Positions 36,266-59,631 of a stretch of DNA of 64,000 nt are shown one piece after another. The DNA comes from Spirosoma fluviale (GTDB lineage: Bacteria > Bacteroidota > Bacteroidia > Cytophagales > Spirosomataceae). Position numbers and translations under genes: made by a program. Location: contig CAMCXW010000001.1 of the NCBI GenBank assembly GCA_945883625.1, positions 62,001-126,000 on the forward strand, written 5' to 3'. The notes under the pieces are model-generated. The model was given only the letters and a program-made list of their open reading frames with translations. It was not told the DNA's origin and ran no database searches. Every line of letters starts with the position of its first letter. Within the stretch, counting starts at the first letter, position 1.

Positions 36266-36799
36266 ATGAAAAAACTACTTTCTGTTACCATGTTCTTGTT
36301 AGCGAGCATTGCTGCTTGGGGACAACAAGCTGCTGACGATGCCATCAAAGCTACAGTCACCAATTATTTTGAAGGCGTAACCACAGGAGACGCAGCCAAA
36401 TTGAACAAAGCATTTCACGAATCAGCCATCTTACGCACATTTAATGCGGCTACGGGAAAAATTCAAGACATCCCTGTTAAAACTTTTATTAGCAAAACCC
36501 CGGCTGGAGGAGTGAAAGCGAGCACCAAACTGATTTCGTATTCCTATGCTGGAGTTTCAGGTTTAGCTGCTGTCGAAATGCAGTTCGACGAATTTAAATA
36601 CATCGATCTACTTTCCTTATTACAAGTCAATGACGAATGGAAAATTGTCGCCCGTGTGTTTAGCCGCGTAGATCTAGATACCCAACTAAAAGGTTCCGCA
36701 GGCGCAGCAACCAAAGCTACTGGCAAAACACCTGCAGCAGCCGCTCCTGCAAAAAAGAGCACAGCGAATATCAAACCGAAAAAAGATGACGGGTGGTAA
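36266..36799 (+). CDS. Secreted NTF2-like / putative lumazine-binding domain protein
   Basis: Signal peptide; AIKATVTNYFEGVTTGDAAKLNKAFHESAILRTF...DLLSLLQVNDEWKIVARVFSR; Ala/Lys-rich tail. Confidence 0.75.
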   Translation: MKKLLSVTMFLLASIAAWGQQAADDAIKATVTNYFEGVTTGDAAKLNKAFHESAILRTFNAATGKIQDIPVKTFISKTPAGGVKASTKLISYSYAGVSGLAAVEMQFDEFKYIDLLSLLQVNDEWKIVARVFSRVDLDTQLKGSAGAATKATGKTPAAAAPAKKSTANIKPKKDDGW

Positions 36800-36805
36800 A
36801 AACTA

Positions 36806-37113
36806 GACGTTAGACTTTAGACGTTAGACGTTGGACGTTAGACGTTAGACTTTAGACGTTGGACGTTAGACGTTAGACGTTGGACGTTAGACTTTAGACG
36901 TTGGACGTTAGACTTTAGACGTTGGACGTTAGACGTTAGACTTTAGACGTTAGACGTTAGACTTTAGACGTTAGACTTTAGACGTTGGACTTTAGACGTT
37001 GGACGTTAGACTTTAGACGTTGGACGTTAGACGTTAGACGTTGGACGTTAGACGTTAGACGTTAGACGTTGGACGTTGGACGTTGGACGTTAGACTTTAA
37101 ACGTTAGACTTTA
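36806..37113 (+). repeat. Tandem array of 44 x 7-bp heptamers (GACGTTA / GACTTTA / GACGTTG)
   Basis: 308 bp = 44 x 7 with phase kept throughout (unit starts checked at 36806, 36841, 36904, 36960, 37023, 37079); a single off-type unit, AACGTTA. Confidence 0.97.
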
Positions 37114-37130
37114 GACGCAGGAAACTTCTA

Positions 37131-37158
37131 GCGTCTGACGTCTAAAGTCTAACGTCCA
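37131..37158 (-). repeat. Inverted copy of heptamer repeat closing the array
   Basis: GCGTCTGACGTCTAAAGTCTAACGTCCA; the reverse complement of 37131-37156 matches the array end (37093-37118) at 21 of 26 positions, 12-nt loop. Confidence 0.85.
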
Positions 37159-37159
37159 A

Positions 37160-37987
37160 TTACCAATTGATTGGTCCTTTACCTAAGTATTTCTCCACGA
37201 TAGGCTTATAATACGATTTCAATTCCTCGAAAACTGGAACTACCGGAGATTTGGTATACAAATCATATTTATTGAAATCACGAATCCATTCAAGATATTG
37301 TTCGTCTTTGGCTGTCATGAATTGACGGTAGCTTCCACCCGAATGCCACGGGTAGAACGAGTGATAGCGAATCATTGCCATACCCGCTTCCGGAATTTTA
37401 TTTTCAGGATGATTTTTTAACACTTGATACAAGTACTCGTCATGCCCCCAAGCTAAGTGCACATTATCTAATCCGCAGCCTTCAGCATATACACCTAAGT
37501 CAGTGTTATAACGCGAATCAGCCATATCTGGATTTAACGCATTAAACTCTGGATACACGCACGAATAAGGTAATTTACAGCCTACGACAAACACATCCCC
37601 TACTAATCCCCACTGCTCAGCCTGACTTGTTCCGTCTTCATCTGAACCAAATAAATACATGGCTTTACCCAAATCATGAATTAAGCCCACCAACTGCATC
37701 CAATCTGGACGCCCTTCGGCACGAAGACCTTCTGCTGATTGCAATAAATGAATGATATTAGGGAGGGTCAAATCTGGATCAGAAACGTCAACCAAGACAT
37801 TCAAGCGCTCCATCATTTCCCAAATGTCCATCGGACGCTCAAATGTCAAGTACTTATTTTTCATTCGAAGTACATATGCATACGTTTGACGCGATCGCAT
37901 CTTACGGTAATGCTCTTTTACGGCAACGGTGATATCACCCTGCTCATAATTACGAAATTCAGATTTTTCTTTGCTGATCGTTTCCAT
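37160..37987 (-). CDS. Inositol oxygenase (MIOX) family protein
   Basis: HD-type iron-site motifs LVGLIHDLGKAMYLFG, WGLVGDVFVVGCKLP, NVHLAWGHDEYLYQVLK, MIRYHSFYPWHSGGSY. Confidence 0.93.
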   Translation of the reverse strand: METISKEKSEFRNYEQGDITVAVKEHYRKMRSRQTYAYVLRMKNKYLTFERPMDIWEMMERLNVLVDVSDPDLTLPNIIHLLQSAEGLRAEGRPDWMQLVGLIHDLGKAMYLFGSDEDGTSQAEQWGLVGDVFVVGCKLPYSCVYPEFNALNPDMADSRYNTDLGVYAEGCGLDNVHLAWGHDEYLYQVLKNHPENKIPEAGMAMIRYHSFYPWHSGGSYRQFMTAKDEQYLEWIRDFNKYDLYTKSPVVPVFEELKSYYKPIVEKYLGKGPINW

Positions 37988-58671: not shown

Positions 58672-58686
58672 GGTTTAGACGCTAGC

Positions 58687-59631
58687 TTAGACGTTAGACT
58701 CTGGACTTTGGACGTTAGACTTTGGACTTTGGACGTCAGAAGTTGGACCTTCGGACTCCGGACTAGCTACTGAAGACTGACTACTGTCCACTGCCTTCAC
58801 TTTAAAACTTGGCTTAAAAACTGGCTTCTTAACCTCCGGACTAGTATTAGACGCTGGATCTTCGGACTCCGGACTAGCGACTGACGACTGACTACTGTCC
58901 ACTGCCTTCGGTTTAAAACTTGGCTTAAAAACTGGCTTCTTAACCTCCGGACTAACGACTTCGGACTCCGGACTAGCGACTGACGACTGACTACTGTCCA
59001 CTGTCGACTGACCACTGACTACTGACGACTGACCACTGACGACTGCCGACTGACCACTGTCCGCGGACTTTTTCAACTCCTCTTTCTCCGCCACAAACTG
59101 TTCATACAAACGCTTCTTCTCCTCTGCCTCCTCGGCCGTCAAGTTCGCAAATGAGAAATTATGCTCTTTGACTTCAAAAACAGAAAAGTCATACTCCGAC
59201 GTCATCGTTAAACACTCCGTCGGACAAACCGTTGTGCACAGACCACAAAAACAACATTTAGACATGTCGATGTCGAATTTGGCAGCATAAAGTCGAATGG
59301 GTGAACCATCGGATGTTAGGCCAACTAACCCAGTAGCTTTGATGGGCTCAATTTCAATGCAATCAACAGGGCAGACTTTGACGCATTTGTCACAAACAAT
59401 GCAATCATCCATCTCATTGTGTAACTGATAGCGACCGTTATCCGGAACAGGAATCTCTACATGCGGATATTCCAATGTCGTAATCCCCGTCGTTTGTGAA
59501 AAATAATCGGTGTCCTGAATGTTATGTTGGCTGCGCTTTTTACGTGCATCAAAGGCATGCTTCCACGTCAGTGCCATCCCCTTTCGAGTACTCTGAATCA
59601 CATCAACAATTTCCTTCAAATAACGCTTCAT
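58687..59631 (-). CDS. nuoI: NADH-quinone oxidoreductase subunit I with repeat-encoded C-terminal extension
   Basis: Two 4Fe-4S motifs CIVCDKCVKVCP and CCFCGLCTTVCP; tail of about 125 aa with VSGQSSV / VQSPKSN heptads and two KKPVFKPSFK(P/V)KAVDSSQSSVASPESE repeats. Confidence 0.95.
   Translation of the reverse strand: MKRYLKEIVDVIQSTRKGMALTWKHAFDARKKRSQHNIQDTDYFSQTTGITTLEYPHVEIPVPDNGRYQLHNEMDDCIVCDKCVKVCPVDCIEIEPIKATGLVGLTSDGSPIRLYAAKFDIDMSKCCFCGLCTTVCPTECLTMTSEYDFSVFEVKEHNFSFANLTAEEAEEKKRLYEQFVAEKEELKKSADSGQSAVVSGQSSVVSGQSTVDSSQSSVASPESEVVSPEVKKPVFKPSFKPKAVDSSQSSVASPESEDPASNTSPEVKKPVFKPSFKVKAVDSSQSSVASPESEGPTSDVQSPKSNVQSPESNV
58690..58745 (-). repeat. Heptamer run within nuoI 3' end (8 units)
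   Basis: Plus strand: GACGTTA GACTCTG GACTTTG GACGTTA GACTTTG GACTTTG GACGTCA GAAGTTG; shares GACGTTA exactly with the 36.8 kb array. Confidence 0.85.
58947..59058 (-). repeat. Second heptamer run inside nuoI (16 units, NNNGACT/NNNNACT type)
   Basis: Plus strand: CCGGACT AACGACT TCGGACT CCGGACT AGCGACT GACGACT GACTACT GTCCACT GTCGACT GACCACT GACTACT GACGACT GACCACT GACGACT GCCGACT GACCACT. Confidence 0.9.

Follow-up and report, generated by a model that had tools for sequence, protein, structure and literature searches.

A tandem heptamer array between convergent genes of Spirosoma fluviale and its relatives at gene ends in the genus

A 44-unit array and an opposing arm between the NTF2-like and MIOX genes

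Here we report on an array of 44 tandem heptanucleotides located between two convergent genes, encoding an NTF2-like protein and MIOX, in a stretch of 64,000 nucleotides from Spirosoma fluviale (contig CAMCXW010000001.1, positions 62,001-126,000), the whole of which we refer to as the window and whose numbering is used throughout (Table 1). The first GAC of the array follows the NTF2-like stop codon at a distance of 6 nt. Recounted from the letters, the units are GACGTTA (A, 20 copies), GACGTTG (C, 12), GACTTTA (B, 11) and a single AACGTTA (x), arranged in the order ABACAABCAACABCABCAABAABABCBCABCAACAAACCCABxB, 44 being the copy number as assembled. On recomputation this order is identical to that given by an earlier sequence-only reading of the locus; Tandem Repeats Finder (TRF), which reports period 7, 44.9 copies and 0% indels at 36804-37117, agrees with its description of an indel-free array in one strict 7-bp phase throughout, and the convergent context that it gave is likewise supported.

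While the sequence-only reading recognised the convergent siting, it overlooked what we consider the most informative features of the locus, namely an inverted arm of four units, 3 nt off the MIOX stop codon, and the polarity of arrays at gene ends; a second heptamer locus in the window, spanning 58686-59066, had also gone unnoticed. Tandem matches to GACNNTN number 46 in the window against 0.01 expected from dinucleotide shuffles and no period other than 7 (and its multiple 14) gives more than one strong run there. The order of the 44 units is near random given their composition (longest repeated unit string, p = 0.18), and we reject a non-random order, the signals at lags 3 and 14 being weak and uncorrected only (p about 0.04).

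Table 1. Features of the two heptamer loci in the window and of the genes bordering the first
Feature	Position	Strand	Remark
NTF2-like gene (PF12893 Lumazine_bd_2, E 4e-20)	36266..36799	+	convergent left border
44-unit heptamer array (GACGTTA/GACTTTA/GACGTTG and one AACGTTA)	36806..37113	+	direct reading; points into gap
partial unit GACG and short loop CAGGAAACTTC joining both arms	37114..37128	.	direct reading, fold
inverted four-unit arm GACGTTA GACTTTA GACGTCA GACGCTA	37129..37156	-	direct reading; points into gap
MIOX gene (PF05153, E 8e-95)	37160..37987	-	convergent right border
second GACNNTR array, 7 units	58690..58738	+	overlaps 3' end of ferredoxin-type (NuoI-like) gene
period-7 runs with words GACTCCG, GACTAGC, GACTGAC, NNACTGA	58860..59066	+	read as repetitive C-terminal tail of ferredoxin-type gene 58687-59631 (-)

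The array belongs to a genome-wide heptamer family

The heptamers are by no means unique to this locus. In the host genome (metagenome-assembled, 2.3 Mb, 86 contigs, 89% complete) a pattern of three consecutive GACKYTR units matches 158 times, the reversed control pattern never, and 42 array starts are found; the nearest relatives add tens of further arrays. Within the genus the pattern occurs in 8 of 38 genomes (158, 106, 95, 50, 46, 33, 23 and 1 matches) and 30 have none; beyond it the distribution is sporadic (9/101 genomes in the family, 8/398 in the phylum). Among the members sampled, the window array is the longest of this genome-wide heptamer family, which is specific to the clade. Judged by the MIOX gene, the nearest named relatives are freshwater Cytophagaceae metagenome-assembled genomes, followed by Sandaracinomonas and Aquirufa. 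As an aside, the reversed control pattern is frequent in some other Bacteroidota genomes (e.g. G301, G243, G400), which means that other heptamer words are abundant there.

Arrays start at or near stop codons and point inward

To describe placement we used about 100 array groups from five carrier genomes, with gene borders set by a simple open reading frame (ORF) caller rather than by curated annotation. GACKYTR arrays are nearly restricted to intergenic gaps, where they start at a stop codon or no more than about 20 nt from it. Their flanking genes are convergent in 57 groups and divergent in none; in the longer stretches that were sampled, an array is present in 9 of 30 convergent gaps, in 6 of 94 co-directional gaps and in 0 of 60 divergent ones. 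Neighbouring arrays on opposite strands come as plus followed by minus in 49 cases and in the reverse order in 2, and within 30 nt of a gene border the polarity is inward at 116 of 119 stop codons and at 15 of 17 start codons. With arrays running inward from both borders, the two members of a facing pair can base-pair with each other in a foldback.

The stop codon itself is often shared with the array. TAG terminates 70 of 112 array-adjacent genes as compared to 57 of 194 other genes (p = 2e-8), and in 42 of the 112 the TAG within the first TAGAC itself serves as the stop codon. The orthologues of these overlapping genes in G107, a single-contig genome of the same genus, give 18 rows with TAG, 7 with TAA and 1 with TGA, several rows being one gene in different species. 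On account of these mixed stops, arrays seem to prefer existing TAG ends but to supply new ones, too. Since TAG recurs every 7 nt it falls in all three frames; a strict three-frame-stop function is nonetheless rejected, as GACGTTG, a quarter of the window units, lacks the stop-bearing TAG and the stop is therefore not strictly maintained.

Turnover and species-wide unit spectra

Turnover by slippage or recombination, which the sequence-only reading derived from the mosaic unit order, finds its support elsewhere: the window gap holds 42 + 4 units here and short arms only in the two nearest species, whereas the near-random order is not itself evidence of slippage. The same reading's suggestion of homogenisation holds, in that unit spectra are species-wide rather than locus-specific, which we count as concerted evolution. 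GACGCTR, for instance, accounts for 24-30% of units in the near subclade as against 1-5% in the other. Between the two subclades, orthologous arrays are no more similar (0.47) than arrays from unrelated loci (0.45), and their resemblance is lower than that among arrays of a single species (0.59-0.61; p = 0.02). Outside arrays, single copies of the three main units are hardly or not enriched (24 found vs 18 expected, 49 vs 41 and 16 vs 18).

Other words follow the same rule, partly at the same sites

G107 has no GACKYTR array, and 800 kb of its genome contain 38 period-7 runs as opposed to 0-3 for every other period, the multiple 14 excepted. Its words (TAGAGTA, TAAAGCA, TGGTRAA, CAGTNNN, AGTCNNN) are often chained within one gap, the two borders of one gap can bear different, non-complementary words, and among its CAGTNNN/ACTGNNN arrays one lies immediately before a start codon. 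Period-7 runs number 13 in 200 kb of G099 and 2 in 200 kb of the Aquirufa-like G090; in 379 kb around MIOX from other Bacteroidota we found 1. In a word-free test pooled over G107, G099, G090, G000 and G109, GACKYTR arrays included, 37 of 43 runs at stop codons have the purine-rich strand running inward (p = 1.6e-6), with a weaker trend at start codons (10/16).

Sites appear to be kept, at least in part, between host and G107. Out of 135 gaps conserved between the two, 5 hold arrays in the host, and G107 has arrays in 4 of these 5 as compared to 3 of the other 130 (p = 1.3e-5; p = 9e-4 if both gaps have to measure at least 60 bp). These numbers, small as they are with five array gaps, indicate that array sites can persist while the word changes.

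Two further observations concern G107. Several gaps (156513-156617, 161529-161769 and 260806-260935, within L279, L280 and L285) show a constant word order of TAAAG, TAGAG, TGGTRAA, TTCCnnCCGGACT and ACTGNNN, which resembles a decayed composite element. In addition, its 800 kb contain a gene-end array type that follows TAG stops and is made of TTAGTC spaced by mini-hairpins around TTCG loops (e.g. TTTAGTCACGACTTCGTCGTTTAGTCACCACTTCGTGG).

As for the second heptamer locus of the window, heptamer repeats of period 7 and period 21 encode the long C-terminal tail (SGQSSVVSGQS..., SPESNVQSPKSNV) of the NuoI-like gene. The tail is longer in the G101 and G115 orthologues (L225, L261), and that of G107 is without heptamer repeats.

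Probable expansion and copying of heptamers tolerated at gene ends

We favour, at a probability of about 0.58, an explanation by heptamer expansion and copying between loci, tolerated at gene ends and with a possible effect on transcript ends. Slippage would make arrays grow and shrink in steps of 7 bases, and gene conversion or a similar process may re-copy them from locus to locus, in the course of which one word would spread and be replaced lineage-wide. Purifying selection would then clear arrays from promoters and coding frames and leave those at gene ends, where a stop-bearing, self-pairing unit is presumably harmless. Transcripts would thereby acquire a long 3' stem with a possible role in mRNA-end protection or transcription termination, be it as a side effect or a later use. 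We count in favour of expansion and copying the pure GACGTTA arrays of distant Bacteroidota (L162, L165), which lie between a stop codon and a terminator-like hairpin and are independent cases.

Several points weigh against this explanation. Slippage and copying are inferred; recent slippage should leave higher-order repeats, yet the order of the 44-mer is near random; and arrays that persist at the same gaps with a different word exceed a purely neutral expectation, albeit on small counts. Nor does it give a reason for 7 bp over other periods. Finally, a single origin of the carriers is not established: on the MIOX gene tree they cluster, yet the carrier label needs two changes and the deep branches are weak.

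Hairpins, terminators and alternative explanations

The array and inverted arm of the window pair into a long hairpin (z = -9.5); even by itself the array RNA is self-folding (z = -8) because GACGUU self-pairs via its ACGU core. Together with the gene-end, mostly convergent siting, the inward polarity and array sites common to species, such strong folding speaks for a selected RNA element, in which facing arrays are kept as hairpins that act in both directions, ending transcription or shielding mRNA 3' ends in place of ordinary terminators, similar to repetitive extragenic palindromic (REP) sequences and bacterial interspersed mosaic elements (BIME) or to terminator-forming uptake sequences. 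In line with this, canonical terminators are less frequent inside facing pairs (15 of 49) than in convergent gaps of the carriers that have no array (13 of 21; p = 0.018), and none is called within 36600-37400 at the window gap, where several relatives have an A/T-flanked hairpin. The deficit is not significant, however, in a matched comparison on the same stretches (4/9 vs 13/21, p = 0.44), and the hairpin at the window lacks the T-run that would follow the GC-rich stem-loop of an intrinsic terminator, so that terminator replacement by arrays is possible rather than shown. Moreover, facing arrays necessarily pair because their units are common to both, and an arm complements its partner at the same locus no better than it does arms from elsewhere (p = 0.15). 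This gives no sign that pairing itself is kept, leads us to reject a hairpin maintained by compensation and, along with the non-complementary words that can border one G107 gap, makes a selected 3'-end element doubtful to our minds. Among structured RNAs in Rfam, nothing scored above the gathering cut-off and only microRNA-precursor hairpin look-alikes appeared far below it.

Other palindromes accompany the arrays or take their place. A terminator-like element is dispersed in the carriers and recurs in the spacers of facing arrays (e.g. L229, L236, L244, L257): it is the palindrome AGAGACGCGATACTTCGCGTCT, accompanied by T-runs and in many cases lengthened to GTAGAGACGCG...CGCGTCTCTAC. Its TAGAGAC/GACGC ends are similar to the heptamers, which might derive from them. 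An element with a hairpin, TTTGGCAAACCTTTCAGGATTGCCAAAGTTTGAGGCG, is likewise dispersed and adjoins heptamer arrays in several carriers (L160, L131, L150, L248, L260). In other species of the genus, the convergent gap orthologous to that of the window (L049-L053 and L056 downstream of MIOX; the G107 gap after MIOX) is filled by a different dispersed palindromic element with the core AAAACGGCGC(A/G)AGCACATGTTTTC.

A miniature transposon, i.e. a palindrome with GAC...GTC ends that inserts into TA, often of a stop codon, and is mobilised by a transposase in trans, would account for the very frequent TA|GAC array starts, for copies dispersed over many gene ends and for G107 orthologues that stop with TAA at some sites and with TGA at one. 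We regard it as quite unlikely, given that length and unit order vary continuously, that many arrays are one-armed, that neither ends nor interior are fixed and that other words follow the rule without TA|GAC ends. Mobility by a REP-type Y1 transposase in particular is rejected, since PF01797 occurs in 0 of 8 carriers (genomes 71-89% complete) but in 13 other genomes of the genus.

Even less probable is an array of protein-binding sites, each 7-base unit recruiting a regulatory or RNA-binding protein: the strict phase and the scatter of copies fit, and there is precedent in the S1/Csp/Csr proteins proposed for TAACTGA repeats (PMC4679880), but word and spectrum differ between related species, most arrays follow stop codons rather than lying in promoters and single units are hardly or not enriched outside arrays. 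Least likely of all is that short-read metagenome assembly made the 44-unit length, for although the genome is incomplete and some arrays are only a few hundred bases away from a contig end, heptamer arrays occur at the same gap in the independently sampled relatives L039 and L040 as well as at many loci in many species, and the mixed unit order argues against simple graph duplication.

Comparison with known repeat systems

Expansion and copying of heptamers, as favoured above, places the arrays close to some known repeats and apart from others. REP, BIME and REPIN elements are dispersed inverted repeats at gene ends. They differ from the arrays described here in not being tandem 7-mers and in having a partner transposase family (RAYT), which is PF01797 and absent from the carriers; a conserved palindromic REP sequence is not found either, the arms being variable heptamer arrays with no fixed palindrome. 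Uptake sequences (DUS/USS) also occur as inverted pairs at gene ends, a reading we reject since single units are not clearly enriched outside arrays. Cyanobacterial short tandemly repeated repetitive (STRR) sequences are short tandem heptamers dispersed between genes, with words differing from GACKYTR, and their likeness to our arrays, by description, is taken as a lead only.

The arrays do belong to the broad class of bacterial intergenic heptamers of the long simple sequence repeat (LSSR)/STRR type: tandem units of 7 bp recur at many intergenic loci and outnumber those of other periods, and they show the inward polarity at ORF borders and the scarcity in divergent gaps published for Xanthomonas and Nostoc (PMC4692102). 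There, GGGAATC (Xanthomonas) and GGGGA(C/T)T (Nostoc) heptamers are found either no more than 50 bp from stop codons, in sense orientation, or upstream of ORFs, in antisense orientation, and are under-represented between divergent ORFs (PMC4692102). Tandemly inverted copies and conserved locations are further points in common (PMC4692102). Unlike these G-rich, quadruplex-forming repeats, however, GACKYTR units are without GGG and fold as hairpins; the window array holds no GGG, no unit has a G-tract of 3 or more, and we exclude it from the G-quadruplex heptamers.

That no characterised equivalent was known from Bacteroidota, as the sequence-only reading had it, needs qualification: TAACTGA arrays of up to 43 copies are known from Bacteroidetes and Cyanobacteria, with five Bacteroidetes described (MacGregor 2015, PMC4679880). 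Common to both systems are intergenic tandem arrays of 7 bp, interspersed related 7-mers ('split' sets) and, in some Bacteroidetes, longer mixed heptamer assemblages; forward TAACTGA arrays, too, carry a stop in each of the three frames, and there are overlaps with stop codons (PMC4679880). TAACTGA direct repeats are for the most part located upstream of start codons, toward which they read (PMC4679880); those of Beggiatoaceae are compatible with the inward rule, and the strand running inward, TCAGTTA, resembles the CAGTNNN words of G107. The difference is that TAACTGA is one fixed word with rare near-variants upstream of starts, whereas here the word spectrum varies by species and facing pairs lie mostly downstream of stops. 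With GACKYTR units, and with 119 array borders at stops and 17 at starts, our arrays are not members of the TAACTGA group.

We tentatively propose, aware that the odds are against it, that one general 7-base process may underlie arrays in three phyla. It would begin at the borders of genes and proceed inward on a fixed strand, and a lineage could exchange its word and still retain the sites. The words made by this process would include GACKYTR, TAGAGTA, TAAAGCA, TGGTRAA and CAGTNNN in this genus and GGGAATC, GGGGAYT and TAACTGA from the literature. In a search limited to open papers, we found no earlier statement that the published heptamer groups share one polarity rule. So far, heptamer arrays have been noted word by word in unrelated bacteria with no agreed origin. 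In this clade, several words stand side by side, and close species have changed the word yet kept the placement rule and, in part, the site. The rule (7 bp, gene borders, inward) thereby becomes separable from the sequence, and origin and upkeep of such arrays can be tested by comparing close freshwater bacteria from the neighbourhood of Aquirufa, of which several are in culture. The kind of array is known; what is new are several words in one genus, concerted spectra across each species and a change of word at kept sites.
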